From Desulfobacterales bacterium (GTDB lineage: Bacteria > Desulfobacterota > UBA8473), in contig JACQWO010000008.1 of NCBI GenBank assembly GCA_016209225.1, forward strand, positions 1 to 64,000: a stretch of DNA of 64,000 bases, read 5' to 3'. Below, one piece after another: positions 8,399-57,557 of this stretch (positions are counted from its first letter, which is position 1; every line of letters begins with the position of its first letter). The position numbers and the translations under genes are program-made. The notes beneath the pieces are model-generated. The model ran no database searches and was not told the DNA's origin. It was given only the letters and a program-made list of their open reading frames with translations.

Positions 8399-9103
8399 CT
8401 ATTTTTCAAAATAGTTATCGGCCAATTTAGTGACGGCCATAAGTCCCTCTTCCAACAGCCTTCTTTTGTTCTCCAGATAGTCCTCATCACCTTTGTTCTC
8501 AACATAAAGAGGCTCTCCCCATACAAAAACGCCCCTGGAAAAGGGGAGAGGCAGTAAAAAAGCATCCCAACTTTTGAATACCTTCCTTTTGGAAGAACTG
8601 AAAGCCATTGGGAGTATAGGGGCTCCACTCAACTTTGACAGATCAATAATACCTCTTTGAACCTTATGTCTCGGTCCATTAGGACCGTCTGGAGCCAAAG
8701 CCAGGTCAGAACCATCTTTTAAAACTCTAATCATCCTGCGAAGGGCAGAAAAACCACCCTTGTTAGTTGAACCTCGAATTGTCTCATATCCAAAAAGTGC
8801 TGTAGATCTGCTGATAATCTCTCCGTCACTATGACGACTTGTAAGCCCATAAACCTGCCTTTCTTTATAGCGCTTAAACAATATTGGAACCATAAGCAAT
8901 CTTCCATGCCAGAATGCAACTATTACATTCCTCTTTTTCCCCCAAATTTGTCTGACATTTTCCGGATTATGCTCTGTTATCCTCAAAGTTAAAGACAATA
9001 ATTTAATTAATAAAACTATTAATAATGGTGCTGCCTTTGCCTTTATCTTCTTCTCTAACTTTTTGCTGATGAGCCTTTTTCTAATCTCTCTGAACTTTAC
9101 CAT
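8399..9103 (-). CDS. lpxJ: DUF374 lysophospholipid-acyltransferase-like protein, candidate lipid A secondary acyltransferase
   Basis: 234 residues, LPLAT superfamily, DUF374 type. After a basic N-terminus there is a hydrophobic segment (APLLIVLLIKLLSLTL), then VIVAFWHGRLLMVP, the putative catalytic SRHSDGE, RGSTNKGGFSALR, and LAPDGPNGPRHKVQRG. DUF374 includes the LpxJ lipid A secondary acyltransferases described in epsilonproteobacteria (family knowledge, from memory). Lying between msbA and waaA, with no lpxL/lpxM homologue in the window, it is a good candidate to add the late acyl chains. The gene symbol is therefore tentative. It starts 9 nt after msbA. Confidence 0.72.
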   Translation of the reverse strand: MVKFREIRKRLISKKLEKKIKAKAAPLLIVLLIKLLSLTLRITEHNPENVRQIWGKKRNVIVAFWHGRLLMVPILFKRYKERQVYGLTSRHSDGEIISRSTALFGYETIRGSTNKGGFSALRRMIRVLKDGSDLALAPDGPNGPRHKVQRGIIDLSKLSGAPILPMAFSSSKRKVFKSWDAFLLPLPFSRGVFVWGEPLYVENKGDEDYLENKRRLLEEGLMAVTKLADNYFEK

Positions 9104-9112
9104 GTTTTTGTT

Positions 9113-10888
9113 CTATTTAACAACCTCTCCATTGTCTCTAAACTGTAATTCATATAGTTTTGTATATTCTCCGTTCTTCTTGAGAATATCTTCATGTATT
9201 CCTTCTTCAACAACTTTCCCACCAACGATAACTATTATCCTGTCAGCATTTCTAATAGTAGAAAGCCGGTGGGCAATGATGAAAGTAGTCCTATTCTTCA
9301 TAAGGTTTTCCAGGGCATTTTGTACCTCAATTTCAGACTCAGAATCTAAAGATGAGGTTGCCTCATCAAGTATTAAAATGGGGGCATCTTTTAAGATTGC
9401 CCTGGCAATTGAAATTCTCTGCCTCTGTCCACCCGAAAGTTTCACCCCTTGTTCTCCAATCATGGTATCATATTCCAGGGGGGTTTCCATAATAAAATCA
9501 TGTGCATTGGCAGCTTTCGCCGCCATCATAATATCATTTTTAGACCTCTTTATATCACCATAGGCAATATTGTTCATTACAGTATCGTTGAATAAAATTG
9601 TCTGCTGGGTTACTATAGCAATTTGTGATCGAAGGGACTCAATGGTAACATCCCTAATATCCACGTCATCTATCAATATTGCCCCTTCTGACACGTCATA
9701 GAAACGGGGAATTAGATTGACCAGTGTAGTCTTTCCTCCACCACTCATCCCAACAAAGGCAACAGCCTCTCCTGCCTTTACCTTGAGATTAATATTCTTT
9801 AGGACCACCTCGTCATCATACTTAAAGGAGACACCTTTAAATTCTATGCTTTTTGAAACAGCTGCAAGAGGCTTTGCGCCTTTTTTATCCATAATCTCAG
9901 GTTCGGTATCGAGAATTTCAAACACCCTAGAAGAAGCAGCCAGTCCTTGTTGAACTGTATTGTTTACTCCACTAAGTCTCTTAATTGGCTCATAAAGCAT
10001 AATTAAACCCGCAAGAAAGGAAAAAAAGTTACCTGGGGTGGAATAGCCTTTTATAACGGAGTATCCACCATACCAGATAATCAATGCAGATCCTAATCCC
10101 CCAATGAATTCCATCACAGGAGACGATATGGAACGAACCTGCTGGGCTTTCATAAAGGCTCGGAACAGCCTATTGTTTTCCGCAGAAAACCTATTGTTTT
10201 CGTATCCTTCCATCCCAAAGGCCTTTACAATTCTATTCCCGGATATGGTTTCATGCAAAAGTGCCGTCAGAGTTCCCATAATATTTTGGTTCAGGGTACT
10301 AATCCGTCGAAGCCTTCTGCCAAATTTTACAATAGGGATAATCGCAAATGGAAAAACCAAAAAGGCAAAGCTTGCCAATTTCCAATCCCGATAAAATACA
10401 ACACCGATTAATCCAATAATGCTGAAGGAATCTTTCAGGACACTTGTAACTGCACTGGATACTGCTCCTTGTATGAGGTTGACATCATTGGTGACCCTGG
10501 ACATCAGAACTCCAGTAGGGTTTTTAGTAAAGAACGAGAGAGAAAGGGTCTGTATTTTGCGATACAATTTATTTCTAATGTCTGCAACTATTCTTTGGCC
10601 TACATAGCTCATCAAATAGGATTGCCCATAATCGAATGCACCCTTCATAAAATACAATAAAATAATAACCAAAGGGATCAAATGGAGCATAGATATTTCA
10701 TTTATGGCTAATGGGAATAAAACGGGAGCAATTAAATCTTTTTTAAAGAACAGCTCATCTAAAGCCGGCTTTATTAAAAAAGCAACTCCTGCTGTAAACA
10801 CGGAGACAAATACCATACAGATCATGGCACCGGATAACCTAAACCAATATGGCTTCACAAACTGTAGTAAACGCTTGTACAATTCCAT
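9113..10888 (-). CDS. msbA: lipid A export ABC transporter MsbA
   Basis: 591-residue half-transporter that flips core-lipid A across the inner membrane. Six transmembrane helices occupy residues 1-310. The ATPase domain has Walker A GMSGGGKTT (about 385), Q-loop VTQQTILF, signature LSGGQRQRIS, Walker B APILILDEATSSLD and the switch His in IIAHRLSTI. Length and helix pattern fit MsbA/HlyB-type homodimeric exporters, and the neighbours (Kdo transferase, lipid A kinase, acyltransferase) support lipid A as cargo. The C-terminus reaches the lpxJ-like start with a 9-nt gap. Confidence 0.92.
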   Translation of the reverse strand: MELYKRLLQFVKPYWFRLSGAMICMVFVSVFTAGVAFLIKPALDELFFKKDLIAPVLFPLAINEISMLHLIPLVIILLYFMKGAFDYGQSYLMSYVGQRIVADIRNKLYRKIQTLSLSFFTKNPTGVLMSRVTNDVNLIQGAVSSAVTSVLKDSFSIIGLIGVVFYRDWKLASFAFLVFPFAIIPIVKFGRRLRRISTLNQNIMGTLTALLHETISGNRIVKAFGMEGYENNRFSAENNRLFRAFMKAQQVRSISSPVMEFIGGLGSALIIWYGGYSVIKGYSTPGNFFSFLAGLIMLYEPIKRLSGVNNTVQQGLAASSRVFEILDTEPEIMDKKGAKPLAAVSKSIEFKGVSFKYDDEVVLKNINLKVKAGEAVAFVGMSGGGKTTLVNLIPRFYDVSEGAILIDDVDIRDVTIESLRSQIAIVTQQTILFNDTVMNNIAYGDIKRSKNDIMMAAKAANAHDFIMETPLEYDTMIGEQGVKLSGGQRQRISIARAILKDAPILILDEATSSLDSESEIEVQNALENLMKNRTTFIIAHRLSTIRNADRIIVIVGGKVVEEGIHEDILKKNGEYTKLYELQFRDNGEVVK

Positions 10889-10989: not shown

Positions 10990-11562
10990 CTATAAAGTAG
11001 ATTTCCGTTTTCTCTTTTCAATAAATAAAGATACTCTTCTTTCAATAATCAAGATAATCCCGGCGCATATAACCCCAACAACTGCCCCTCCAAGAACATC
11101 AAAAGGATAGTGCACTCCTACATATACTCTGGAGTAGGCCACCAGAACAGCTATAGAGATAAAGGCTACAACAAGCCTCTTGTATTTGTACCCAAAAAAA
11201 CCAGCAGCTGCAAAGATATTCGATGCATGAGAGGAAGGGAAGGAATAGGATTCCAGACCGCCACATCCAACCAGCAAATTAACATGGGGCAATACATTAC
11301 AGGGACGAACCCTTGCCACGACAGGCTTTATGACCTGAGCGATTAACAGATCACTAAACCCGACAACGACAATCACCAAGATAGCTGCTACCCTTCCTTT
11401 CTTGCCGCCTTTTACAATCAAGGCAAGCCAAACAATCAAAATAACAATCTTCCAGTTATCAACGTCTGTTATTACAGGCATGATTCTGTCGAAAAAACTG
11501 TTCTGCATAGTGTTATTGATAAAATAAAATAGACTTGTGTCGATCTGTAAAAGGTGGTCCAT
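10990..11562 (-). CDS. PAP2-family membrane phosphatase (lipid A or undecaprenyl-PP phosphatase)
   Basis: 190 residues, about five membrane helices, all three PAP2 signatures: KPVVARVRP, FPSSHASN (motif 2 with His), and SRVYVGVHYPFDVLGG. Such periplasm-facing enzymes remove phosphate from undecaprenyl diphosphate (BcrC/PgpB) or from the 1/4' positions of lipid A (LpxE/LpxF). The location next to a GT39/83-type transferase and within lipid A genes makes a lipid A phosphatase attractive, but the sequence does not separate the options. It is one of two PAP2 genes here; the other (14158-14730) differs at the motif 2 His. Confidence 0.85.
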   Translation of the reverse strand: MDHLLQIDTSLFYFINNTMQNSFFDRIMPVITDVDNWKIVILIVWLALIVKGGKKGRVAAILVIVVVGFSDLLIAQVIKPVVARVRPCNVLPHVNLLVGCGGLESYSFPSSHASNIFAAAGFFGYKYKRLVVAFISIAVLVAYSRVYVGVHYPFDVLGGAVVGVICAGIILIIERRVSLFIEKRKRKSTL

Positions 11563-11602
11563 TAGGCTATGCCCATCCCCTGTCTGGTTTTCAATCCGGA
11601 CA

Positions 11603-11628
11603 CAACAGCGGGCTTAAGCCTGCTGTTG
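11603..11628. repeat. palindromic repeat, copy 1
   Basis: CAACAGCGGGCTTAAGCC followed by TGCTGTTG forms an 11-bp-arm hairpin with one mismatch, in the gap between the PAP2 and GT39/83 genes. An almost identical, fully symmetric copy lies at 31292-31315. Confidence 0.75.
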
Positions 11629-11652
11629 AGAACCATTAGTCTATACCATTCC

Positions 11653-13152
11653 CTAGCTAGGTTTCAATCCCTTAAAATTGTAACACTTATAGATATAAAT
11701 ACTCCTTATAGGAAAGCCATTTCGTTTAATCGTTAAACATCTGCTTTCTTCTATGCGATCAAAAACAGCCGTTACAAAGCTGGATTCGCCATAGCTTTGT
11801 TCAGATACCAAAACCGCATTATTACCCAAACGCGTTGAAAAGTCATTCCAAATATTGTACTGATTAAACCGCCCTTCCCAGGATACTTCATAGACTGGAT
11901 ATGTTTCACTCTCAGAGTAAAATGCCAACTCCCCCACAACCTGATGACGATGACCTAATATAAAGGTGGGAGTCTCTTTCGGCATTTCATGAAGGACTTT
12001 GTTTACCTCTAATCCCATCTCTCGCCATCCATGGAGCGCACTGGTCGGGTCATCCTTCAGGGGGATCGGTAAGAGAGGATATATAGCCTGTACATGAGCA
12101 ACAGTAGTTAGCAGAAGACTGGAGGAGAATACTATTATCAGCCATGCAACATGGAGTTTCCTTTTCTTTCCTCTGGAAAGTGATAAAAGAGACAGACCTG
12201 TCATAGCTATAAGACCCGAGAAATAAGCCATCCCAGGCCAATTCCCTTCAACCTTTGTACGAAGACTAATCATCGCGAAGAACAGAAACACAGGGGCAGA
12301 TGCACAGAATAGCAACAGGAGGTTGGCATTCTGCCTTTTCAGACCTAAATAGAGGCTCTTTGCCATTATATACAACCATGCAATAAAGACGAAAGGGGAT
12401 AATATCCCCATTTGTCCTCCGATATAATCTAAGAAGTATTTCATTCCCGGGTTTTCCTTCGTTGAAAAACCATGTGTGAATTGAAAATTAAAGGATATCC
12501 AATCATGCTTAAAATTCCAGATAATAACCGGGCTAAAGACAACCAATCCAATAATCAATGCCAAGTATGGTTCCTTTCTCATCAACCACTTTCTGTTGTC
12601 TCTTGACAATAGTAAAAATAGAAGTATAGAAGGGACAAAGAGAAGCATCGTATATTTGCTTAAGAGCCCAAAGCCTAAAGCTAACCCAACAAGATACCAC
12701 CAAAATTCCTTACTGGTGGATATTGCCTTATATACGAAGTACAATCCTAATACCCAAAAGAACCCCTGCGGGGCATCTGGGGTAACTATTACGGCTCCTA
12801 TTGCATGTCCGGGCACAATATTTACCAGAAATGCTGACAGTAATCCTACTCTTTCATCTCCAAAAATGTCTTTGCCTAATCTGTATGCTATAATGGTCAT
12901 AAGAAAAATCAGCACAACACAGCTAACCCTTGTAAAGAATTCACTATTACGGCCTAGCAGGGTAAAAAGAGAGATAAAATAAGCTATCATAGGAGGATGA
13001 TCGTAATAACTGAGACCCAGATTACGGGACCAGTCCCAATAATAAGCCTCGTCCGGAGATAAGTCTAAGAATCCTATAAATACAAGCCTAACCACTGTTA
13101 CACTAAAGAGAAAGATAAGGAAGTAAGTTTTGTATCTGTTTATATTTTCCAT
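11653..13152 (-). CDS. ArnT/PMT-like polyprenyl-phosphate-sugar glycosyltransferase (GT39/GT83), copy 1
   Basis: About 499 residues with some 11-12 membrane helices. The first periplasmic loop holds SPDEAYYWDWSRNLGLSYYDHPPMIAY, the acidic Asp-Glu signature of ArnT/RgtB-type enzymes. They use an undecaprenyl-phosphate sugar on the periplasmic face to glycosylate lipid A or other acceptors. The upstream frame begins 9 codons earlier, but ATG at 13150-13152, 4 nt after the stop of the adjoining GT2 gene, gives the normal N-terminus. It is paralogous to 14738-16243 (same loop and same C-terminal NGFPIRSIYIYKCYN / NGEHIRTFYIYKCYN). Together with the GT2 and PAP2 genes it looks like a lipid A decoration module. 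Confidence 0.85.
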   Translation of the reverse strand: MENINRYKTYFLIFLFSVTVVRLVFIGFLDLSPDEAYYWDWSRNLGLSYYDHPPMIAYFISLFTLLGRNSEFFTRVSCVVLIFLMTIIAYRLGKDIFGDERVGLLSAFLVNIVPGHAIGAVIVTPDAPQGFFWVLGLYFVYKAISTSKEFWWYLVGLALGFGLLSKYTMLLFVPSILLFLLLSRDNRKWLMRKEPYLALIIGLVVFSPVIIWNFKHDWISFNFQFTHGFSTKENPGMKYFLDYIGGQMGILSPFVFIAWLYIMAKSLYLGLKRQNANLLLLFCASAPVFLFFAMISLRTKVEGNWPGMAYFSGLIAMTGLSLLSLSRGKKRKLHVAWLIIVFSSSLLLTTVAHVQAIYPLLPIPLKDDPTSALHGWREMGLEVNKVLHEMPKETPTFILGHRHQVVGELAFYSESETYPVYEVSWEGRFNQYNIWNDFSTRLGNNAVLVSEQSYGESSFVTAVFDRIEESRCLTIKRNGFPIRSIYIYKCYNFKGLKPS

Positions 13153-13156
13153 ACTA

Positions 13157-13900
13157 CTAGAACCTAAATCGAAGCACAAACATCTTCAATAGACTTTCCC
13201 TTATTATTCTAAAATTAAAGGTAGACTCCCCACTCATTCTTTCTTCAAAGACAATTGGGACTTCCTTAATTTTGAACCCTTTTTTGTATGCCTTGTATAA
13301 AACTTCCTGGACAATAGAAGGCCCAGAGGAGATCATACTATTGAGGTCTATAGCCTCCAAAACATCTCTCCGAAAGACCCTAAACCCAGAGGTGCAGTCT
13401 TTTATCTTCAAGTTTAGAATGATTCTTATATATATATTTGCTAATTGGGTTACCCATGTTCTCATAATATTTCTCCCAGATTCCCCTCCCTCTTTCAAAA
13501 GCCTGGAACCAATAACTACATCACAAGTATCCATCTCCTTTAGCATTAGAGGGATATAAACCGGCTTATGGGAAAAATCCCCGTCCATTTCAATGACATA
13601 ATCGGCTCCCTCCCTCAGTGCATACTGAAACCCCTCTATACCTGCTGTTCCTCTACCCCTTATGCCAATCCTGTGAATAACATGAACCCTTGGGTTTGTT
13701 TCCCTCATCCGATCCAGAATCTTGCCTGTTCCATCGGGAGAATCGTCATCCACCACAACCACGGAAATATCATTGGATACAGCTAGTACTTCTTGAATCA
13801 GTCTCTCTATGTTTCCAGCCTCATTATATGTGGGAATCATTGCCATAGTCTTTGCCTGAAAATGCCCTTCTTGCTCAACCGCTATCCGATTTTGATTCAT
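13157..13900 (-). CDS. polyprenol-phosphate-mannose synthase-like GT2
   Basis: GT2 enzyme of the dolichol-phosphate-mannose synthase family: IPTYNEAGNIERLI, VVVVDDDSPDGTG (nucleotide-binding Asp), EMDGDFSHKP (DxD-like metal site), CTSGFRVFRRDVLEAI, and VPIVFEERMSGES. No C-terminal membrane helices, so it is a soluble DPM1-type enzyme that charges polyprenyl phosphate with a hexose in the cytoplasm. ATG at 13898-13900 is chosen; the 13 codons before it translate repeat DNA, and ATG 18 codons further in is also possible. It sits between the two ArnT-like genes and probably makes their donor (inference). Sugar identity (mannose versus another hexose) is not provable from sequence. Confidence 0.85.
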   Translation of the reverse strand: MNQNRIAVEQEGHFQAKTMAMIPTYNEAGNIERLIQEVLAVSNDISVVVVDDDSPDGTGKILDRMRETNPRVHVIHRIGIRGRGTAGIEGFQYALREGADYVIEMDGDFSHKPVYIPLMLKEMDTCDVVIGSRLLKEGGESGRNIMRTWVTQLANIYIRIILNLKIKDCTSGFRVFRRDVLEAIDLNSMISSGPSIVQEVLYKAYKKGFKIKEVPIVFEERMSGESTFNFRIIRESLLKMFVLRFRF

Positions 13901-13919
13901 TTCACATGCCTTCTCATGT

Positions 13920-14101
13920 GTGTCAAACCCAAATGACAAAATCCAAATGTCAAATGAAATCCAAATACCTAAATCCCGTTAAAGGCCTAATTTCTAGAAA
14001 CCTCTAACTGGATAAATGCCAACACATTAAATCAGTGACTAGTTTTGTCATTTGAACTTTGGGCTTGATTTGACATTTGAGTTTTGTCATTTGTCATTTT
14101 T
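13920..14101. repeat. inverted heptamer array (CAAATGA/TCATTTG family)
   Basis: The left arm (13920-13970) carries CCAAATG, CAAAATC and TCAAATG units. The right arm (14041-14100) carries their complements (TTTGACA, TTTGTCA, TTTGAAC). The transcript would fold into a long imperfect hairpin between the PAP2 stop and the GT2 start. A sister array is at 17480-17610. Confidence 0.8.
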
Positions 14102-14157
14102 AGCTTGGTCACCTGAACATGCCTCTAATAATCTTCACGCCTCTTTGTGACTGAAGG

Positions 14158-14730
14158 TCATGGATTCTTTCTTCCTGGAAAATATCTGTAGCCAAAATAG
14201 CAGACCACGAAAGATGCCAAAGCACCTATCACTCCCCCAATAAAGACGTCTGAAGGATAATGGACTCCTACATAGATTCGCGATATACCCGTTATAAAAG
14301 CAACTACAAATAGAAGCGTTACATGTTTTCTATAGGTGTAAGCGAGAAACATGGCCGTTCCAAAGGCTGTCTGAGTGTCACCAGAGGGGAAAGAACTGTG
14401 TCTCAATGGTTCCAGTACTATGTTTATGTGGACTCTATTTGCCAATATTAAATCAGCCATATCCTCCAAAGGACGGGGCCTTGCCACTAACTCCTTTAAA
14501 ACGTGAACGAATATTCCCCCTGCCAGCACAGCAACAATACCAATCGTAAAATTACGCCTAAAATTCTCCCTGTCAAAAATATAGAGTCCCAGACCTATGA
14601 GACCAGCCAACACATACCCTGAACCAAACCACGAAAATACAATCATTATCAGATCAAAGATCGGGCTTGAAAGTCCATTATTTATAGCAAGGAATATAGA
14701 TTTATCTAAAGCGACAATGTCCTCTAACAC
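14158..14730 (-). CDS. PAP2-family membrane phosphatase, variant motif 2
   Basis: 190 residues with about six membrane helices. Motif 1 is KELVARPRP, motif 3 is SRIYVGVHYPSDVFIGG, but motif 2 reads FPSGDTQTAF, with Asp where most PAP2 enzymes have the His that protonates the leaving group (PSGH). Motif 3 His and Asp are intact. It either uses Asp in that role, belongs to a PAP2 branch with this signature, or has altered activity. It lies 8 nt after an ArnT-like gene, the same PAP2/transferase pairing as 10990-13152, so I suspect each pair treats one phosphate position of lipid A (inference). Confidence 0.82.
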   Translation of the reverse strand: MLEDIVALDKSIFLAINNGLSSPIFDLIMIVFSWFGSGYVLAGLIGLGLYIFDRENFRRNFTIGIVAVLAGGIFVHVLKELVARPRPLEDMADLILANRVHINIVLEPLRHSSFPSGDTQTAFGTAMFLAYTYRKHVTLLFVVAFITGISRIYVGVHYPSDVFIGGVIGALASFVVCYFGYRYFPGRKNP

Positions 14731-14737
14731 CTCTTTA

Positions 14738-16243
14738 TCACCTCATGGATTTGAAGTTGGACGTATTGTAATTATAACACTTGTAGATATAAAAAGTCCT
14801 TATATGTTCTCCATTTCTATAGATTTTGAGGGGCGGCTCAGCCTCTATAGAAGAAAACATACCCTTATATACCTCGTGAGGGTCCTTGTTATATCGATTA
14901 TCTGCTAAAAAGATTGCATCCCCTCCTAAAAAATCATCCGGTCCAGGCCAGAAGTCATATTGATCAATATATTCATTTAAACAGTATATCCTTAATCTAG
15001 CTCCGGTATAAAATGCAATATGACCGGCCAGAACAGGGCGATGAGTAAAAATAAATGTTTTATTGTGCTGAGACATCTTACTATATATCTCTAAAATCCT
15101 TTCTCCAGCCTTGGGCCATCCATATAGTTCGTTGGTTCCATCTACCTCTGCAGGAAGGGGTATAATTTTAAAAAGGGCCTGGGCAGGCATAAGAGCGGAG
15201 AATAGAACCGCAGTTACTAAAACGAGATAAGTCGCCGCAAACAGCCGTATTCTGCTACTGCCGGTCTTTTTCTTAAATGATTCCGATGTTAACTGAGCCA
15301 GAATAATAAATGCGGTAACAAACCCGAGAGTTGGCCAATGAGGCAATACTTTCTTAAAAAAGCTTAAACCAGCAAAAAAAAGCAGAATGACAACCGAAAA
15401 AGAAAAAAGAAAAAGATAACGATCATCTCGTTTTACAATTCCTCGATACCCACCAATAGCAATGGCATAAAGGGATGCAAAAAACAGGAGAGGAGAGATA
15501 TAACCCATCTGTCCTGCCAAACCGGCAGCAAACCATTTCGGAGAAAATTCAAAGGTGCCTCCATAACCACGGGAAAGTTGAAATCCAAAGGATGCCCATC
15601 CATTTTTAATATTCCATATTATGACAGGGCTAAATATTAACAGGGCGATAAATAATGATATGTAGGGTTCCTTACGGGTAAGCCAAAACCTATTCTTTTT
15701 AGACAACAGGAGGAAAAGAAAAACAGAAGGAAATAAAAAAAAGGCGTTGTATTTACTTAAGAGTCCTAGACCTGCCACGCAACCTGCCATATACCAAAAA
15801 GACGCCCTCCCCTCTTTCATAATTCTGTAAAGGAGATACATGGTTATAACCCAACTCAACCCCAGAGGAGTATCCGGCAGTATAAGTATTGCCTCTAATA
15901 CAGTAAATACCGGTGTTAAATTCAGCAAAAGGGCTGAAAAAAAGGCTACTCTATTATCGTTGAAAATCTCTTTTGCAAGAAGGAAAACAAAAATGGAAAC
16001 AAAGAAAAAAAATATCACAGATCCAATTCTGACTGAGAATTCATTTATCCCCCCAATCTTTGTAAACAGGGCTATCAGGTAAGCAGCCATAGGAGGATGG
16101 TCAAAGTACGAGAGGCCTAAATATTGAGACCATGCAAAATAATGGGCCTCATCGTCTCCCAGTCCAATCTTTCCTATGACACTCAGTCTAAGTAGAGTCG
16201 CAACTATCAGCAGGATAAAGAATAACTTTTTATATCTTTCCAT
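14738..16243 (-). CDS. ArnT/PMT-like polyprenyl-phosphate-sugar glycosyltransferase (GT39/GT83), copy 2
   Basis: 501 residues, about 11-12 membrane helices. The first periplasmic loop GDDEAHYFAWSQYLGLSYFDHPPMAAY has the catalytic-type Asp-Asp-Glu. WLTRKEPYISLFIALLIFSPVIIWN matches the same segment in copy 1, so the two arose by duplication. They have diverged enough to treat different acceptors. It overlaps the end of the GT9 gene by 14 bp and precedes the PAP2 gene by 8 nt: tight translational coupling in one operon. The function proposed is transfer of a lipid-linked hexose to lipid A on the periplasmic face; lipoglycan or protein acceptors are alternatives. Confidence 0.85.
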   Translation of the reverse strand: MERYKKLFFILLIVATLLRLSVIGKIGLGDDEAHYFAWSQYLGLSYFDHPPMAAYLIALFTKIGGINEFSVRIGSVIFFFFVSIFVFLLAKEIFNDNRVAFFSALLLNLTPVFTVLEAILILPDTPLGLSWVITMYLLYRIMKEGRASFWYMAGCVAGLGLLSKYNAFFLFPSVFLFLLLSKKNRFWLTRKEPYISLFIALLIFSPVIIWNIKNGWASFGFQLSRGYGGTFEFSPKWFAAGLAGQMGYISPLLFFASLYAIAIGGYRGIVKRDDRYLFLFSFSVVILLFFAGLSFFKKVLPHWPTLGFVTAFIILAQLTSESFKKKTGSSRIRLFAATYLVLVTAVLFSALMPAQALFKIIPLPAEVDGTNELYGWPKAGERILEIYSKMSQHNKTFIFTHRPVLAGHIAFYTGARLRIYCLNEYIDQYDFWPGPDDFLGGDAIFLADNRYNKDPHEVYKGMFSSIEAEPPLKIYRNGEHIRTFYIYKCYNYNTSNFKSMR

Positions 16244-17348
16244 TGTCCTTAAGCAGATCTAATACTGCATGGTAAACCTCATCCACACTTATTGTATTCA
16301 TGCAGTTAACCTCTTTATTGCATTCCCTCTTGTAACAGGGGCCACATCCCAATTCCGAAACTATCTTTCTACCTCTACCGTAGAGTTCAATCTCTTGTGC
16401 ACAGGTAGGACCAAAGATAGCAACTACCAGTTTTCTAAGTGCTATAGCTATGTGCATGGCAATGGTATCACCACTTACCACTAGATCGCAGAGATTTATC
16501 AGGGCACAGAACTGTTGGAGGGTATTATGACAGCCAACATCATAAACCAGATATTTAATCCTTGAGCATATTTCTCTATTCCGTTGTATTTCATTGGGCC
16601 CTCCTAGAAGGAGGATCTTTGCATCCATTTCTGAACTAACAGTTTCGATTAATTCAACAAAGCAATCAATAGTCCATGCCTTATTTGCGAAGATATCTCC
16701 TGCACCGGTATTCAATCCAATAATTAAAGCCTCTTCGCTTATCCCATGCTTTAGCAAGAACGACCTGGCATAATTTACATCTTCATCAGGGATGGTTAGG
16801 ATGTATTCATCCTGCTGGTATTCTAATCTTGATGACTCATATATCAACTCAGGATAAGTTTTAGCGTTAATCACAAATTTTAATGGATCGGATAGACCTA
16901 ATTTAAACAGGTATACACTTTCTTCATTTAAAGGAAAGACATTACCTTCGGGACTCATTCCAAAACCTAATTTTTCTTTTGCCTTGATCTTTATAGCCAA
17001 AGCAGTTGCTCGCGGTTCCTTGTCAAGACACAAAAGCAAATCAAATTCTTCTACTTCCAGTCGAAGGACAGTTTCGACATTAAAAACCAACAGTCTATCT
17101 ATCAATGGATTCTCTTTAAGCAGACCATATACGTTTTCGTCGGTTAACCACGTAATATGGCTTTCAGGATATTTCCTCTTAAATCCTCTCAAAATCGGGG
17201 TAGTCCTTAACACATCTCCCATGGCAGCCAATTTTATTATCAATATCCGACTACCCATTGGTGCGTATTTATCACAATCTTCGCAGAGCAACTTGTATCT
17301 GCATGGTTTTTCACCCACAAAGTGCTTGCAATCAAGCCTTAGTTTCAT
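16230..17348 (-). CDS. GT9 heptosyltransferase-like protein with N-terminal Cys motif
   Basis: 372 residues. A GT9 core begins at about residue 32 (SRILIIKLAAMGDVLRTTPI), with the donor motif VVSGDTIAMHIAIAL and VVAIFGPTCAQEIE. Ahead of it is a 30-residue leader with four Cys in DCKHFVGEKPCRYKLLCEDC, a likely small metal-binding knuckle. A further Cys set, CGPCYKRECNKEVNC, is near the C-terminus. It is distinct from waaC/waaF and may add a later heptose or another ADP-sugar to the core. The start is ATG at 17348; the leader is conserved-looking (regular Cys spacing), so I keep it rather than starting at M31. Confidence 0.8.
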   Translation of the reverse strand: MKLRLDCKHFVGEKPCRYKLLCEDCDKYAPMGSRILIIKLAAMGDVLRTTPILRGFKRKYPESHITWLTDENVYGLLKENPLIDRLLVFNVETVLRLEVEEFDLLLCLDKEPRATALAIKIKAKEKLGFGMSPEGNVFPLNEESVYLFKLGLSDPLKFVINAKTYPELIYESSRLEYQQDEYILTIPDEDVNYARSFLLKHGISEEALIIGLNTGAGDIFANKAWTIDCFVELIETVSSEMDAKILLLGGPNEIQRNREICSRIKYLVYDVGCHNTLQQFCALINLCDLVVSGDTIAMHIAIALRKLVVAIFGPTCAQEIELYGRGRKIVSELGCGPCYKRECNKEVNCMNTISVDEVYHAVLDLLKDNGKI

Positions 17349-17641: not shown

Positions 17642-18805
17642 TTAGGTTTTCAATCCAATTTTCCGTAAAATACGTTCTATCCACACTATAAAATTAATGG
17701 GCAAATCATTGGCTGTTTTATATAACATGTATATTCCTAATATACCAATGAAAAAATTTGGCGCCCATAATGCGATGGGGAGAGGAATCTCACCATTCTT
17801 GGCTAAAATCTCTCCACCGGTAAGAAAAACATAGTAAGTCAGTATTACTCCCAGGCTAAGTATAAATCCCCAAAATTTACTGGATGGTCTGGATTGTATA
17901 CCTAATGGAATTGCAGTTAAACCAAATACTAAACAGGCAAAAGGGAGAGAGAACTTTTCATATAGTACCTGTAAGGGATGGTAAAAACTTTTTTTTTCTT
18001 CTCTTAACTCTTCGATCTTTCTTTGCAGTTCACCAATTGACATTTCACTGTATTCCTTGGCAAAGCTCCCTTGCTCTTTTATAATCGTTCCTAAGTTCAG
18101 ATTTATATCGTAAGCACTAAAACCAATCTCTTGATATGTATTCAAATCCTTACTGGCTCTATGAATCTTCCCATCAATCAATCTAAGTGTAATAATGAGA
18201 GATTTTGGATCAGAGATTAGATAGCCCTCTCTGGCAACAATAGTATTGGGTTCCCCGGTTTCTCCTTTTTCAGAAACCAAAATCCCTTTTAGTTTTTCAC
18301 CCCTGACAGCTATTTCATTCACATAAAGAACCAACCCCTTAAAGTCACTATTGAATGTTCTCTCTTTTATACCAATGTTTACCTTGTTTCTGGCGATATT
18401 GAAGATCAACTCGCTGGTAGAGCTATTCCCCCAGGGAAGGGCATAAACTGCCACAAAGGAAGTCAAGACCGAACAAACCAGAGAGAAAATCATTATCGGA
18501 GCAACCAGTTGGTATGTGCCTATTCCAGATACCTTCATCGCAGTAATCTCATTATCTCCAGAAAGTCTTCCAAGGGCAGCCAAAACAGCCATTAATAGAG
18601 CCATGGGAAAGGTCAACACAAGAAAGGAGGGCATGGCATAGAGAATTAACTTTGAAATGTCAATAAGTTTTACTCCTTTATTTACCACCAATTCAGTTAA
18701 TCGTAAGATACTATTCATTAAAAAAATGAAGGTAAATATCAAAAGCCCAATAAAAAAAGGGCCCATAATCTCTTTGATTAAATATAAACTGATAGTCCTT
18801 TTCAT
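17642..18805 (-). CDS. lptF: LPS export permease LptF/LptG (YjgP/YjgQ family)
   Basis: About 387 residues. Three N-terminal membrane helices (residues 12-120) contain PFFIGLLIFTFIFLMNSILR and LSGDNEITAMKVSGI, the conserved cytoplasmic coupling segment. A periplasmic beta-jellyroll region follows (about 140-270), then three C-terminal helices with FGLTAIPLGIQSRPSSKFWG. LptF and LptG form the membrane part of the LptB2FG transporter that extracts LPS toward the Lpt bridge. ATG at 18803-18805 is used; 24 upstream codons in frame lack family similarity. Only one of the usual tandem lptF-lptG pair is here, so the partner must be elsewhere. The symbol is a best guess between F and G. Confidence 0.82.
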   Translation of the reverse strand: MKRTISLYLIKEIMGPFFIGLLIFTFIFLMNSILRLTELVVNKGVKLIDISKLILYAMPSFLVLTFPMALLMAVLAALGRLSGDNEITAMKVSGIGTYQLVAPIMIFSLVCSVLTSFVAVYALPWGNSSTSELIFNIARNKVNIGIKERTFNSDFKGLVLYVNEIAVRGEKLKGILVSEKGETGEPNTIVAREGYLISDPKSLIITLRLIDGKIHRASKDLNTYQEIGFSAYDINLNLGTIIKEQGSFAKEYSEMSIGELQRKIEELREEKKSFYHPLQVLYEKFSLPFACLVFGLTAIPLGIQSRPSSKFWGFILSLGVILTYYVFLTGGEILAKNGEIPLPIALWAPNFFIGILGIYMLYKTANDLPINFIVWIERILRKIGLKT

Positions 18806-18880
18806 CGAATTAGTCCATTCTGAAAAATGAAAAATTTCCTTTGGGGCAAACATGAGCAGGATTTTTGGGGAACCCAACTG

Positions 18881-20203: not shown

Positions 20204-20323
20204 GGGTTCCAGGAGTCGAGGGTTCTAGGGTTCAAGTGTTTAAAGTATTTATAGCTTTGATCACTCGACCCCTTGACTCCTTGAATCCTTGAACCCTCAA
20301 ACCATCGGCTTTAGCCGATGGTA
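20204..20323. repeat. inverted octamer array capped by CCATCGGCT hairpin
   Basis: The left arm carries AGGAGTCGAGGGTTCTAGGG and TTCAAGTG units. The right arm has CACTCGACCCCTTGACTCCT, TGAATCCT, TGAACCCT. The cap ACCATCGGCT-TT-AGCCGATGGT (20301-20322) contains the last three codons and stop of the gnnB-like gene. The same cap occurs at 39921-39940 beside another octamer array. Confidence 0.8.
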
Positions 20324-21477
20324 GTTGACATTGCATCTTTAATTGTTTTACAGACTCTCTGTATCTCATCCTCCGTCAACTCCGGATACATAGGCAGTGA
20401 TAATACCTCAAGAGACGCCGATTCACTTTTCTTAAGGTCATTTGCATCAAAACATAAGCCCTTAAACACTTGCTGTTGATGAAGAGGTAGAGGATAGTAA
20501 ATTGCCGAAGCAATACCCTCATCTCTAAGGCATTTTGTTATCCTATCTCTATATCTGGTTCTAATCGTATACTGGTGATATACGTGTTTAACGTGCTCAT
20601 CCTCATAGGGCGTAATTAGATCTACTCCCCTAAGGCAATCATTATAGAGGCTGGCATTCTTTCGACGCAATTCGTTGAATTTATCTATCTTTCTTAACTT
20701 CACCCTTAGAATTGCTGCTTGGATCTCATCAAGCCTGCTATTGAAACCCATCTCAATATAATAGTACTTCACCTTACTTCCATGGTTTCGCAGGATCCTA
20801 ATCTTATCTGCCAGGTCTTCACTATCAGTAATAATCATACCTCCATCGCCGTAACAACCCAGGTTCTTGCTGGGAAAAAAGCTGAGGCATCCAATCTCGC
20901 CAAAAGTCCCAACTTTTCTCCCTTTGTATTCAGATCCAAATGCCTGAGCACAATCCTCTATAAGTAGAAGATTGTACTTACTGCATAGGCTTACAATATG
21001 TTCCATATCAGCAGATTGTCCATAAAGATGGACTGGTAGAATAGCCCTTATCTGATTTCCATTTTCCTTATTTATTAATATCCCCTCTTTCTCATTAAAG
21101 GATGTTTTTGTCTCGATAAATTCTTCAATCTTTTCCGGGTCAATATTATATGTTATGGGATTTATATCCACAAATATGGGGGTTGCCCCTACAGAAACAA
21201 TGGTTTCTACAGTAGAAACAAAGGTAAAAGGGGTAGTAATTACATCTTGTCCTTTTCTTACCCCACAGGCAAGAAGTGCCAAGTGTAATGCATCAGTGCC
21301 TGATGCAAGACCAACGGCGTATTTGGCTCCTAAGTAAGACGCAATTTCTTTCTCCAGTTTCTCTACTGACGGACCTAAAATGAAGTTCCCATCCTCCAAT
21401 ACTTCTTTAATAGCTCTGTCAATTTCATCCTTCATTATTTCATACTGAACTTTGAGATTAACCATGGGAATCATCAT
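20311..21477 (-). CDS. gnnB: DegT/DnrJ/EryC1 aminotransferase, candidate UDP-3-keto-GlcNAc aminotransferase
   Basis: 388-residue PLP enzyme, fold type I, of the sugar aminotransferase family. GLASGTDALHLAL binds PLP phosphate, LIEDCAQAFGSEYKGR carries the ring-stacking Asp, and FFPSKNLGCYGDGGMI holds the Schiff-base Lys. AAGGAG sits 5 nt before the first ATG of ATGATG (21477). It overlaps the oxidoreductase gene by 20 bp, so the two work in sequence. In Acidithiobacillus ferrooxidans a Gfo/Idh enzyme and a DegT enzyme (GnnA, GnnB) between lpxA and lpxB convert UDP-GlcNAc to UDP-GlcNAc3N (family knowledge), and this is the same arrangement. O-antigen WbpE-type function is the alternative. The C-terminal T-I-G-stop lies in a repeat hairpin. 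Confidence 0.8.
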   Translation of the reverse strand: MMIPMVNLKVQYEIMKDEIDRAIKEVLEDGNFILGPSVEKLEKEIASYLGAKYAVGLASGTDALHLALLACGVRKGQDVITTPFTFVSTVETIVSVGATPIFVDINPITYNIDPEKIEEFIETKTSFNEKEGILINKENGNQIRAILPVHLYGQSADMEHIVSLCSKYNLLLIEDCAQAFGSEYKGRKVGTFGEIGCLSFFPSKNLGCYGDGGMIITDSEDLADKIRILRNHGSKVKYYYIEMGFNSRLDEIQAAILRVKLRKIDKFNELRRKNASLYNDCLRGVDLITPYEDEHVKHVYHQYTIRTRYRDRITKCLRDEGIASAIYYPLPLHQQQVFKGLCFDANDLKKSESASLEVLSLPMYPELTEDEIQRVCKTIKDAMSTTIG

Positions 21478-22426
21478 AAATTCTCCTTAACCGGTCAATT
21501 TGTTCTAGAATTCGTAACGCTACAGAAAGTGCCCTTTTAGCATCGGCCCCGGACACTAAGGGTGGTTTCCTGGTGTTAACTGAATCGATAAAAGACTTAA
21601 TCTCTTCTTCTAGAGAGTCCCTTGCGTTTATTTCCACATTGCTAGCCACAATTTTAGGCAAACCACCATTTTTTTCTCCATTTTCAATCTTATTATAGAT
21701 ATCAACCTTTTTTGAGAGAAAATCTATGGAGATATAGGCATCTGGTTGAAATATGCGAATCTTTCTCATAGTCTTTTCTGAAACCCGACTGGCAGTGATA
21801 TTAGCTACACAACCATTGATAAAAGTTATTCTAGCATTGGCTATATCTATTTTAGGAGAAATCACAGGGACACCCACAGCATCAATAATATCTATATCAG
21901 AATTAACAATACTCAATACGATATCAAGATCATGGATCATCAGATCCAGAACCACATCTACATCGGTAGCTCTTTCAGTAAAGAAACTCAATCTATGGGA
22001 TTCAATGAACATAGGATTATTCAAAACATCTTCTATAGCAACAATAGCTGAGTTATATCTTTCTAAATGTCCAACCTGAAATATTAGATTTTTCTTCTCA
22101 GCCATCTCTACTAAAGTGTCTGCTTCTGCAACAGTTGTGGCAATAGGTTTCTCAAGCAAAATATCTATACCATTATTATAGTAATCCTTGGCAACTCTGT
22201 AGTGTAATTTGGTTGGAACAGCAATGCTCACTGCCTGTACTTCACCGAAAAGATCAGAGTAGTCAAAAAAAGCCCTTGTATTAAAACGATTGGCAATCTC
22301 TAATGCCCGTGCATGATTAATGTCAACTACCCCAATTAGATTAACCCCTGATAGTTTTGAATACTTTTCCGCATGATATTGGCCTAGATACCCTACCCCT
22401 ACTACGCCAACTCTTATCTTTTCCAT
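21458..22426 (-). CDS. gnnA: Gfo/Idh/MocA oxidoreductase, candidate UDP-GlcNAc 3-dehydrogenase
   Basis: 322 residues. The N-terminal Rossmann domain has GVVGVGYLGQYHAEKY (residues 7-22), VSIAVPTKLHY, and the signature DILLEKPIATTVAEAD with the catalytic Lys of EKP near residue 93, followed by FQVGHLERYN. The C-terminal alpha/beta domain is typical of Gfo/Idh enzymes. Its tight overlap with a sugar aminotransferase and its place between lpxI and lpxB suggest oxidation of the 3-OH of UDP-GlcNAc as the first step to a diamino sugar (GnnA). The start ATG follows AGGGC at a short spacing, 20 nt after lpxI. Confidence 0.8.
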   Translation of the reverse strand: MEKIRVGVVGVGYLGQYHAEKYSKLSGVNLIGVVDINHARALEIANRFNTRAFFDYSDLFGEVQAVSIAVPTKLHYRVAKDYYNNGIDILLEKPIATTVAEADTLVEMAEKKNLIFQVGHLERYNSAIVAIEDVLNNPMFIESHRLSFFTERATDVDVVLDLMIHDLDIVLSIVNSDIDIIDAVGVPVISPKIDIANARITFINGCVANITASRVSEKTMRKIRIFQPDAYISIDFLSKKVDIYNKIENGEKNGGLPKIVASNVEINARDSLEEEIKSFIDSVNTRKPPLVSGADAKRALSVALRILEQIDRLRRIYDDSHG

Positions 22427-49147: not shown

Positions 49148-50395
49148 TTATTTTCCAAAGTACTTTGCCATCTCTGGTGGATAGAGATGTGGGACTTCTA
49201 TCCAATCGCTAAGACCAACAACCTTCGCACCTTTAACCTGATAGAGCCTTATTGCATTACTGGTTCTGCGGTCATTGGGCATAACGGTTACAGGTGGCCC
49301 AAGGTCAAACTCTCCCCTGTAGTCTTTCAGGCGTTCAAAGCCATATTTAATGTAATTCTCGCCAGTGAGTCCTTCATAGCCCTTTGCCTTGTATGCCAAT
49401 CTGGTTGCACCCATCACTACTTCTGCAAAATGAAAGCCACGGATGTATCCTTCAACGAGTTTCTTGCCTCTGTATTTCATTCGAAGTTCATTGAGCTTTT
49501 TTATACCGGGACGGTTGTCTACCTCCATATAGGTATAGGTATTGAAGATGTAACCCTCAAGCATCTCAGGGGATACTCTGCGAAGCATCTCCGTCCCCAT
49601 GGTCCACCAGAATGCTGCTATACCGATCTTCCCCCTAAGACCAAGGGTATTAAAGTTTTTGATAAATACCGTGCCTATCTGGCTGAGCCCCTGAAGCCAT
49701 ATCCAGTCTACACCCTTGTCTCTAAGCCTCAGGATTTGTGCGGTGAGGTCGATAGGAACAACAGGGGCAAACTCCTGACCTACCACATCAACCCCTATCT
49801 CCTTGCCGAATCTTATCCCGGACTCAGTAGCTGCACGACCGTATGCAGCGTCCGGTCCTATTATCCCAACCTTGGGTATCCCTGACTTCCCCTTGTTCTC
49901 CCAATCCTTTTTAACCCACTTTAAGAAGGCACCGAATCCATCGGCATAGCTACAGCCATCAAGGAATATATTGCCTGGGGGGTATATCTGAGGATCACTC
50001 TGGCCGATGTTATAACATGCTATCCCATCTCGTTCCAGGGTCTTCTTCAATGCCTCACCATCAGGGGAAGAAAAGAGGGCAAGGAATTGAGCACCTGATT
50101 GTTTGAACCTTTTGTAGTGGGACCATGTCCTGGACATCATATTTCCAGTTTCTCCCCAGGGGATTTCGAATTGATGACCGTACAGTCCTCCCTTTTCATT
50201 TATGTAACGATAATAGTCTTGTGTCCCCTCAAATATTTCGGGAACAAGAATACCATAAGGGCCGGTTAGGTCAATGATATAGTAGTGTTTTATCGGTGGC
50301 TTTGCCTCTGCTGAAACAGCATAAACAATTAAAGCCATCAATAATATTCCAGCCAAACAAAACTTCATCAAATTACGTAAGATTTTTCCTTTCAT
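49148..50395 (-). CDS. periplasmic binding protein of a Liv-type ABC importer, copy 1
   Basis: 415 residues with a signal peptide (LMKFCLAGILLMALIVYAVSAEA, cleavage near 32). The mature part opens PIKHYYIIDLTGPYGILVPE, a variant of the Leu/Ile/Val-binding opening, and has GIACYNIGQSDPQIYPPGN, VGIIGPDAAYGRAATES and VDWIWLQGLSQIGTVFI. It binds a solute for the LivHM permease. It is closely related to 50761-52014 but separated from it by a terminator and a 365-bp gap. AAGGAGG lies 5 nt before the ATG. Substrate unknown. Confidence 0.88.
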   Translation of the reverse strand: MKGKILRNLMKFCLAGILLMALIVYAVSAEAKPPIKHYYIIDLTGPYGILVPEIFEGTQDYYRYINEKGGLYGHQFEIPWGETGNMMSRTWSHYKRFKQSGAQFLALFSSPDGEALKKTLERDGIACYNIGQSDPQIYPPGNIFLDGCSYADGFGAFLKWVKKDWENKGKSGIPKVGIIGPDAAYGRAATESGIRFGKEIGVDVVGQEFAPVVPIDLTAQILRLRDKGVDWIWLQGLSQIGTVFIKNFNTLGLRGKIGIAAFWWTMGTEMLRRVSPEMLEGYIFNTYTYMEVDNRPGIKKLNELRMKYRGKKLVEGYIRGFHFAEVVMGATRLAYKAKGYEGLTGENYIKYGFERLKDYRGEFDLGPPVTVMPNDRRTSNAIRLYQVKGAKVVGLSDWIEVPHLYPPEMAKYFGK

Positions 50396-50421
50396 CTTCC
50401 CTCCTTTCTAACCCTGCGAAC

Positions 50422-50493
50422 TTAAATCAATCCAAGATTGCTTAAGATATCTGCAAACTCGGTCTCATGTTTCGCGTACTCTCTTATTGCCAT
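50422..50493 (-). other. 23-codon fragment in the 50396-50718 gap
   Basis: ATG at 50491-50493 preceded by GAGGAGC gives a peptide containing REYAKHETEFADILSNLGLI. The same frame is open 13 codons further upstream (containing KTGFREELLE), suggesting the tail of a lost gene rather than a working one. Nothing else is seen in this gap. Confidence 0.25.
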
Positions 50494-50718
50494 TTCTAAT
50501 AGCTCCTCTCTAAATCCAGTCTTTATTGTTTCTTCTTACTGATGCCGCTACAGTCTTTCTATCCAAAATAACTAATTTATGGCAAGTATTTTTGAACTGG
50601 GATTGTTGAATCGAGCGCTAACAGCATTAAAGATGTGTGAGAGGTACTGCTGAAAACCAGATAATCTCGAAGAGAACTTGATGTGAAAAGGAAGAACAAA
50701 TTCCGCGGAAAAGATCAT

Positions 50719-50756
50719 GACAAAGGAGACACCCTCCCTTGGATGTCTCCTTTGTC
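50719..50756 (-). terminator. hairpin after the second binding-protein gene
   Basis: GACAAAGGAGACA (50719-50731) pairs perfectly with TGTCTCCTTTGTC (50744-50756): a 13-bp stem with a 12-nt loop, 4 nt beyond the stop of the 50761-52014 gene. It is not followed by a long U run, so it may serve as a partial terminator or 3' stabiliser that sets the level of copy 1. Confidence 0.65.
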
Positions 50757-50760
50757 GTTC

Positions 50761-52014
50761 TTATTTTTCAAATAGCTTGGCCATATCCTCTGGATATAGA
50801 TGAGGAGCATCTATCCAATCGCTGTATCTTTCTATTTTGCCATTTTTAACCTGGTAGAAGAGCATCTTCTTTGCAGTCCTTCGGTCATTGGGCATAATAT
50901 CAAAAGGTGCACCCAGATCCCAGGGAGTCTTCCAGTTCTTAAAGGTCTCCATCGTCTTCATATAGTTCTCACCAGTGAGACCCTTATACCCATATTTTCC
51001 CAGGGTTCTCTTTGTAAGCTCTATTACAAACTGGGTAGCCCTTACACCTCTTACATAGTACTCATCAGGGGCTTTTTTATGATACTTCTGGCGCATTTGT
51101 GCGCACTTTTTGATGCCCGGATGATTATTCTCCACCTGGGGCAGATAGTTATAACTGTTGAATATGTAACCCTCGGAAAATTTGGGTCCGATACGTCTCA
51201 GCATCTCAGCACCGGTCACCCACCAGAAACCGGCAACAGGTATTTTCCCATGCAGCCCAAGAGAAGCCATATTCTTCATAAATACCGTTGCTATCTGACT
51301 CAACCCCTGCATCCATATCCAGTCCACACCCTTCTCCTTGAGCCTTAATATCTGTGGGGTTACATCAATGGGGACAACCGGGGTAAATTCCTGACCAACG
51401 ACATCAACCCCAATCTTCTTGCCAAACCTCTGACCCGGCTCCAGGGCGGCCCTACCATAAGCTGTATCTGGACCAATGATACCGACCTTCATTATGCCCT
51501 TTTTCCCTGCTTTATCCCATTCTGCCTTCGCCATCTTTAAAAAAGCTCCAAACCCTTCACCGTAGCTTGGACCATCTATATATGTCCATGCCGGGGGATA
51601 AAGCTGTGGATCGCTCTGACCGTAGTTGAGGGGACAGAATATCTTATCCCTGGTCATTGTACTCTTCAGTGCCTCACCGTCAGGAGAGGATGCAAGCCAG
51701 AGCAACTGAGCCCCTGATTGTTTGTACTTCTTGTAGTGGGACCATGTCCTGGCCATCATATTTCCGGTCTCTCCCCAGACAAGGTCTACCGGATAGCCGT
51801 CAATCCCCCCTTGTTCATCTACCAACCTGTAGTAATCGAGCTTGGCCTCCCAGACATCTGGAACAAGAATGCCGTAAGGGCCTGTCAGATCAACAATACC
51901 ATAGTGTTTAATTGTCGGCTTTCCTGCTTCTGCCGTGGATACAAAAACAGCCATCGTTCCAAACAGCAAAATGGCAAGTCCAACAATCATCAAACTCATA
52001 AGCCTTTTTCTCAT
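50761..52014 (-). CDS. periplasmic binding protein of a Liv-type ABC importer, copy 2
   Basis: 417 residues. Signal peptide (MSLMIVGLAILLFGTMAVFVSTAEA, cleavage near 30), then PTIKHYGIVDLTGPYGILVP. FCPLNYGQSDPQLYPPAW, VGIIGPDTAYGRAALEPGQ and VDWIWMQGLSQIATVFM correspond to those of copy 1. The open frame extends 25 codons upstream, but ATG at 52012-52014 has AGGAGGAGGT at proper spacing and starts the signal peptide. It lies in the operon after the LEA14-like gene, so it is the main binding protein of the importer. Confidence 0.9.
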   Translation of the reverse strand: MRKRLMSLMIVGLAILLFGTMAVFVSTAEAGKPTIKHYGIVDLTGPYGILVPDVWEAKLDYYRLVDEQGGIDGYPVDLVWGETGNMMARTWSHYKKYKQSGAQLLWLASSPDGEALKSTMTRDKIFCPLNYGQSDPQLYPPAWTYIDGPSYGEGFGAFLKMAKAEWDKAGKKGIMKVGIIGPDTAYGRAALEPGQRFGKKIGVDVVGQEFTPVVPIDVTPQILRLKEKGVDWIWMQGLSQIATVFMKNMASLGLHGKIPVAGFWWVTGAEMLRRIGPKFSEGYIFNSYNYLPQVENNHPGIKKCAQMRQKYHKKAPDEYYVRGVRATQFVIELTKRTLGKYGYKGLTGENYMKTMETFKNWKTPWDLGAPFDIMPNDRRTAKKMLFYQVKNGKIERYSDWIDAPHLYPEDMAKLFEK

Positions 52015-52039
52015 TTGTTTTACCTCCTCCTTCTGGTGA

Positions 52040-52696: not shown

Positions 52697-52782
52697 TGCT
52701 TGTTTACCTCCTTTCTAAATTTTCGGAGTAGATCCATAATCCCGATGAACAGGGATCGGATCAAACACCAATTGTTTTCCCC

Positions 52783-53841: not shown

Positions 53842-53860
53842 TTATTAACCACCTCCTGCA

Positions 53861-54748: not shown

Positions 54749-54771
54749 CTTAGACGTATCCTCCTATTCTT

Positions 54772-56682: not shown

Positions 56683-56743
56683 GCCTCTCTCCTTCGACGA
56701 AAGCTCTTTTAGCTCTCAACTCTCAACTTTTAACTCTTAACTC

Positions 56744-57541: not shown

Positions 57542-57557
57542 CTATATACCTCCGTTA

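Follow-up and report, generated by a model that had tools for sequence, protein, structure and literature searches.

A six-gene cassette in the lipid A operon of an uncultured deltaproteobacterial lineage that probably exchanges both lipid A phosphates for sugars

The phosphates of lipid A normally crosslink the outer membrane via divalent cations and are recognized by polymyxins and by TLR4/MD-2. Can a bacterium exchange both of them for sugars with a single set of neighboring genes? This question is raised by a 64,000-nucleotide stretch of DNA from a Desulfobacterales bacterium (GCA_016209225.1, contig JACQWO010000008.1, positions 1 to 64,000), referred to here as the window. Within a lipid A operon, the window encodes two PAP2 phosphatases (PAP2a and PAP2b), two ArnT-like transferases (ArnTa and ArnTb), and a family 2 glycosyltransferase (GT2). 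A preliminary description, made from the DNA letters, proposed that these five genes are a duplicated module with one phosphatase-transferase pair for each lipid A phosphate. The analysis presented here indicates that the cassette of this uncultured deltaproteobacterial lineage probably swaps both lipid A phosphates for sugars, and that the two pairs are of separate origin.

The genes are part of a minus-strand, operon-like run of lipid A and lipopolysaccharide (LPS) genes that extends from lysS (33.0 kb) to waaF (4.7 kb), as identified by open reading frames (ORFs) and Pfam/NCBIfam matches. The run is composed of lysS, lolC, lolD, bamA, skp, lpxD, fabZ, lpxA, lpxI, a Gfo/Idh oxidoreductase gene, a DegT aminotransferase gene, lpxB, and lptF, followed by a family 9 glycosyltransferase (GT9) gene, ArnTa, PAP2a, GT2, ArnTb, PAP2b, msbA, a DUF374 acyltransferase gene, waaA, lpxK, and waaF. 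All five ORFs described previously are present at 10990-16243 on the minus strand in the claimed order (a glycosyltransferase then a PAP2 phosphatase, twice), Pfam agrees with their assignments, and flanking lipid A/LPS genes upstream and downstream bear out the lipid A setting. The cassette consists of six genes and not five, however, since the adjoining GT9 gene comes and goes with the other five: it is missing together with them in otherwise collinear operons of two related genomes. The cassette and its boundaries are as follows.

17642..18877, minus strand: lptF-type gene, upstream boundary of the cassette (Pfam LptF_LptG, 1.7e-89)
16230..17348, minus strand: GT9, heptosyltransferase family, with the N-terminal motif CKHFVGEKPCRYKLLCEDC (Pfam GT9, 2.5e-20)
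14738..16243, minus strand: ArnTa, a GT-C polyprenyl-phosphate-sugar transferase, partner of PAP2a (Pfam PMT_2, 2.8e-40)
14158..14730, minus strand: PAP2a, an LpxE-type lipid A phosphatase candidate (Pfam PAP2, 9e-22)
13157..13939, minus strand: GT2, a soluble DPM1-like polyprenyl-phosphate-sugar synthase, start codon uncertain (Glycos_transf_2, 1.7e-28)
11653..13179, minus strand: ArnTb, the second GT-C transferase, partner of PAP2b (Pfam PMT_2, 1.4e-39)
10990..11562, minus strand: PAP2b, the second lipid phosphatase candidate (Pfam PAP2, 1.1e-22)
9113..10888, minus strand: msbA, downstream boundary of the cassette (ORF and homology)

This arrangement is not due to chance, as the order is conserved in genomes of the same genus (g1). 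The preliminary description had proposed a search for the five-gene order in other genomes; G004 retains the whole cassette order, and what is present in G001-G003 is collinear as far as the contigs reach. Elsewhere in the family, two genera represented by G005 and G006 have a collinear operon in which lptF runs directly into msbA. The collinear stretch begins at lysS in G005 and at bamA in G006 and continues via lpxB, lptF, msbA, and the DUF374 gene to waaA. Missing from it are GT9, both ArnTs, both PAP2s, GT2, and also DegT. No PAP2a match was found anywhere in the G005, G006, and G007 genomes, and no ArnTa match in G005 and G006. Family f14 has a single-pair version, GT9-ArnTa-PAP2a-GT2-msbA, at the same operon position; there, the lpx operon contains just the a-pair, with the second ArnT encoded elsewhere.

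PAP2a possesses a complete active site of the pattern KX6RP / PSG(H or D) / SRX5HX3D, composed of KELVARPRP, PSGD, and SRIYVGVHYPSD. Its best match in the PDB is Aquifex aeolicus LpxE (6ebu, 1.6e-22), and in the PAP2 tree it falls in a clade with this enzyme, the f14 proteins, and fusion proteins from Endomicrobia (97/88), where A. aeolicus LpxE itself is on a long branch. A. aeolicus LpxE (LpxE_AA; Aq_1706) is a demonstrated lipid A 1-phosphatase, and the His of its PSGH motif is replaced by Asp (PMC6581854). The same PSGD is found in PAP2a of all five genomes of the genus, and the f14 and Endomicrobia members of the clade have PSGH. That PAP2a is catalytically dead through the His-to-Asp change was considered and rejected, because LpxE_AA has the identical change and is active. 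Tree, PDB sequence match, and motif thus relate one pair to an enzyme proven to act on the 1-phosphate of lipid A, in support of the earlier proposal. PAP2a has no match to the NCBIfam LpxE equivalog NF007159 (PAP2b reaches 21.7 of 177 bits, below cut-off), and published LpxEs are only 14-17% identical to Aq_1706 (PMC6581854). For these reasons, PAP2a is described by its sequence as LpxE-like, of the Aquifex type, and nothing beyond that is claimed. In family f11, PAP2a-type genes, some with PSGD, are directly upstream of and nearly overlap an LpxL-type acyltransferase gene (PF03279, 1e-40 and 4e-44 in the two tested) in loci that lack an adjacent ArnT (L246 6226-7813, L244 3025-4627, L247, L248, and L245). 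Judged from gene order, this adjacency is an independent link of the PAP2a type to lipid A.

PAP2b also has a complete active site (KX6RP...PSSH...SRX5HX3D), plus an RPC...C cysteine pair. Its structural model (predicted local distance difference test, pLDDT, 90.5) has LpxE 6ebu as the closest PDB fold (1.5e-5), followed by the Bacillus subtilis phosphatidylglycerophosphate (PGP) phosphatase, so the fold leaves its specificity unsettled. The tree places PAP2b in another clade (93/92), made up of deltaproteobacterial and Nitrospirota proteins. Within this clade, both cysteines, which are located in the periplasmic active-site loop, are present in 38 of 43 members and neither in the other 5, with no member having one alone. 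This covariation suggests a disulfide.

The transferases and the donor synthase are consistent with a polyprenyl-phosphate-sugar pathway. A sequence search of the PDB with ArnTa gave no match; comparison of its AlphaFold model (pLDDT 90.5) did find ArnT as the best fold (5ezm, E 5.6e-10, template modeling score 0.60). Against the ArnT equivalog NF009784, the two ArnTs score 36.5 and 19.3 of 567 bits, below cut-off. GT2 is a 260 aa protein with no hydrophobic segment, and its best match is the Pyrococcus furiosus dolichol-phosphate-mannose synthase (5mlz, 6.6e-26, residues 26-254). Among the enzymes encoded in the genome are one that is ManC-like (344 of 373 bits) and others resembling UDP-glucose dehydrogenase. 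Choosing the sugar by donor supply is uninformative, because GDP-mannose and UDP-glucuronate/galacturonate routes both look available. Our guess is mannose; uronic acids such as galacturonate are also possible.

Did the second pair arise from the first? The preliminary description called the pairs duplicated, and this part of it fails. Forcing PAP2a and PAP2b of the genus into one clade gives a tree that is 78 log units worse (approximately unbiased test, p-AU 3.5e-6), and forcing ArnTa and ArnTb together, which are 39% identical, is 42 log units worse (p-AU 0.0055). In-situ duplication of a pair is therefore rejected. The nearest branches to ArnTa are the ArnT-PAP2 fusions of Endomicrobia (99/96), and the f14 ArnTa and a Bdellovibrionota transferase (L152) are near the a-type ArnTs. 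ArnT domains that adjoin or are fused to a-type PAP2s occupy different parts of the ArnT tree from those associated with b-type PAP2s. By these trees, each PAP2 and each ArnT-like protein descends from an old lineage of its own.

The coupling of phosphatase and transferase, also proposed previously, is borne out by fusion proteins. Twenty-three single-ORF PAP2-ArnT proteins of ~680-760 aa were identified (21 in Nitrospirota, 1 in Nitrospinota, and 1 in Sumerlaeota), all with b-type PAP2 domains that fall in the PAP2b clade. Three Endomicrobia proteins of ~710 aa have the opposite order, ArnT-PAP2, with a-type PAP2 domains. In three f14 genomes, a PAP2b-type domain, also of the PAP2b clade, forms an in-frame N-terminal fusion with WaaA in the lpx operon, between msbA and lpxK (L052 15250-17127; L054 1303-3264; L239 13530-15566). 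Searches of an open-access library turned up no account of proteins in which PAP2 is fused to ArnT or to WaaA. Contact between a PAP2 protein and ArnT has precedent, since LpxT, another PAP2 protein, co-purifies with ArnT in Pseudomonas aeruginosa (PMC13142001). The fusions suggest that removal of the phosphate and addition of the sugar are coupled. Tentatively, a PAP2 and an ArnT, whether fused as in Nitrospirota and Endomicrobia or paired in an operon as in the window, might be one bifunctional unit that dephosphorylates and glycosylates the same carbon within a single complex in the periplasm, in which case two such pairs of separate origin, one for each end of lipid A, would give a phosphate-free outer membrane in uncultured members of several phyla. 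In Nitrospirota, the PAP2-ArnT fusion is part of a mini-module located away from lpx genes, together with a GT2 (~326 aa) and an LPG_synthase_TM (UPF0104) protein (L112 9380-13357; also L115, L101, L120, L131, L133, and others). The LPG_synthase_TM protein could be a flippase or a partner in the transfer.

How would the cassette act? In the cytoplasm, GT2 would load a hexose onto polyprenyl phosphate, giving the sugar donor for both transferases, and a flippase would move the loaded carrier across the membrane. MsbA would deliver Kdo (3-deoxy-D-manno-oct-2-ulosonic acid)-lipid A, and the LpxE-type PAP2a would strip the 1-phosphate in the periplasm, allowing ArnTa to add a sugar at the freed position. 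PAP2b would strip the 4' phosphate and ArnTb would cap that position. The product would be a phosphate-free, sugar-capped lipid A. We infer the assignment of pairs to positions, the identity of the sugar, and the completeness of the replacement: PAP2a/ArnTa is placed at position 1 because PAP2a is related to LpxE, and PAP2b/ArnTb at 4' by elimination.

We consider it reasonably probable, from the sequences compared, that both phosphates are replaced in this way, with PAP2a/ArnTa at 1 and PAP2b/ArnTb at 4'. Supporting this, the cassette is inside a lipid A operon, in the lptF-msbA interval, and is cleanly absent in sister genera. Several observations weigh against it. In the f14 genome G092 (89% complete), the locus has two tandem PAP2a-type genes (L239 9467-10738) where relatives have ArnTa-PAP2a, together with GT2 and PAP2-WaaA; no ArnT is in this locus, and none was detected genome-wide at that completeness. 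PAP2a-type proteins are also found without a neighboring ArnT in families f39 and f11, ArnTb groups with f20 and f46 transferases that have no adjacent PAP2, and strict monophyly of the a-type transferases is borderline (p-AU 0.052). LpxE_AA, furthermore, is trifunctional and also cleaves undecaprenyl pyrophosphate (C55-PP) and PGP (PMC6581854). An unlikely alternative is that only the 1-position is exchanged, by PAP2a/ArnTa, and that the second pair uses the same donor to modify the inner core (Kdo/heptose) or another envelope lipid. The f14 operon, with its a-pair only, fits this explanation, as do the fusion of one kind of PAP2b to WaaA and the position of PAP2b-type genes elsewhere: in deltaproteobacterial metagenome-assembled genomes, PAP2b-ArnTb follows waaF, a GmhB-like HAD phosphatase gene, and a second heptosyltransferase (waaC) gene. 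However, the 23 proteins in which a phosphatase is fused directly to a transferase point to dephosphorylation and glycosylation at one and the same site, and the window genus keeps both pairs in one lipid A operon.

The trifunctional activity of LpxE_AA, which complements C55-PP and PGP phosphatase mutants (PMC6581854), raises a quite unlikely explanation in which the PAP2s are general polyprenyl-pyrophosphate/PGP phosphatases that supply or recycle the carrier lipid for GT2 and the ArnTs, and the ArnTs glycosylate lipid A phosphates that stay in place, in the manner of Escherichia coli ArnT. Weak NCBIfam matches to the SepP and YbjG families and the stand-alone PAP2a-type genes of other families are compatible with it. 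ArnT-type reactions, though, release polyprenyl monophosphate and require no pyrophosphatase, the genome has its own BacA C55-PP phosphatase, so that recycling of C55-PP does not require the PAP2s, and two specialized PAP2s that are each linked to a separate transferase would be one more than such a role calls for. A plain C55-PP phosphatase of the YbjG/PgpB kind is likewise unsupported: both PAP2s are below the undecaprenyl-diphosphatase cut-offs (PAP2a 34.7 of 229 bits for NF008813 and 64.8 of 250 for NF047884; PAP2b 62.3 of 229 and 73.3 of 250), and Escherichia coli YbjG, LpxT, and PgpB are outside both PAP2 clades. The firm grouping with undecaprenyl-pyrophosphate phosphatases that the preliminary description had named as contrary evidence did not occur, although this comparison is weaker than assumed there because Aquifex LpxE also hydrolyzes C55-PP and PGP. 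The LpxT-ArnT co-purification in P. aeruginosa (PMC13142001) could also mean that a PAP2 is an LpxT-like phosphotransferase or a regulator bound to ArnT. This is highly improbable given that E. coli LpxT is distant, on a very long branch, and has a different motif, FPGDH.

Replacement of both phosphates would resemble several known systems. Lipid A capped with galacturonic acid (GalA) is found in Aquifex, Caulobacter, and Oligotropha, and 4'-phosphatases have not been found for Aquifex or Caulobacter (PMC7663294). With the Aquifex system (GalA at 1 and 4'), the cassette shares a PAP2 nearest LpxE_AA, the PSGD motif, and a predicted product with both phosphates replaced; the putative rgtD/F/E-like genes of Aquifex are at scattered locus numbers, whereas the window has both pairs and the donor synthase in one lpx-operon cassette. 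The LpxE-LpxF-RgtD-RgtF-RgtE systems of Rhizobium, Mesorhizobium, and Oligotropha follow the same logic of a phosphatase and a GT-C transferase for each end with one polyprenyl-phosphate-sugar synthase, as compared by published descriptions. The R. leguminosarum genes, in contrast, are at separate loci, and RgtE is reported as 338 aa (PMC7795004), compared to 260 aa without hydrophobic segments for the window GT2. No characterized LpxE, RgtD, or RgtF was among the Rhizobium plasmid matches. Bdellovibrio bacteriovorus, as cited in PMC7795004, has a neutral lipid A with alpha-mannose instead of both phosphates. A similar type of product is expected here; unlike the cassette, the Bdellovibrionota L152 transferase has no adjacent PAP2 or GT2. 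The ArnT/ArnC system for 4-amino-4-deoxy-L-arabinose shares an ArnT-fold GT-C transferase and a GT2 donor synthase, but ArnT decorates the phosphate rather than replacing it, and there is no dedicated phosphatase.

The PAP2-ArnT fusions offer a sequence signature that would predict phosphate-free lipid A in uncultured phyla, as well as single-chain enzymes in which a link between removing the phosphate and glycosylating that carbon could be examined. In the window family, collinear operons that have or lack the cassette form a natural comparison.

Other genes of the operon may also shape the lipid A. Two adjacent genes between lpxA and lpxB could determine the backbone.

21458..22426, minus strand: Gfo/Idh oxidoreductase, GnnA-like (Pfam GFO_IDH_MocA, 2e-31)
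20311..21477, minus strand: DegT-family aminotransferase, GnnB-like (Pfam DegT, 1.2e-123)

If these are GnnA and GnnB, the backbone would probably contain the diamino sugar 2,3-diamino-2,3-dideoxy-glucose (GlcN3N). Gfo/Idh scores 221.5 of 450 bits against the UDP-GlcNAc 3-dehydrogenase model NF040723. DegT is present in genus g1 and absent in the cassette-less sister genera, where lpxB directly follows Gfo/Idh. Because Gfo/Idh is common without DegT, a backbone with the diamino sugar is likely only in genomes that have DegT as well. The C..PC..C..C motif at the N-terminus of GT9 was found in every cassette-like locus seen (f14, f20, Endomicrobia, and two CSMAG bacteria), and metal binding or membrane attachment is conceivable for these four cysteines. 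Between msbA and waaA, the DUF374 acyltransferase gene (8399-9103) belongs to the family of LpxJ, an alternative enzyme for late acylation of lipid A. A second WaaA-like gene, ~40% identical to the operon copy, is found in all three genera (L205 on G004:C26, L202 in G005, L203 in G007, and L204 in G006) and has a gene for a DegT aminotransferase close by in G004 and G006. A third WaaA-like gene (L206, G004:C2), 27% identical to the operon copy, is present in G004. Away from the operon, the window at 49148-58358 encodes two paralogous periplasmic binding proteins next to genes for a branched-chain-type ABC transporter and an AMP-dependent acyl-CoA ligase, giving this locus the look of a catabolic uptake locus.

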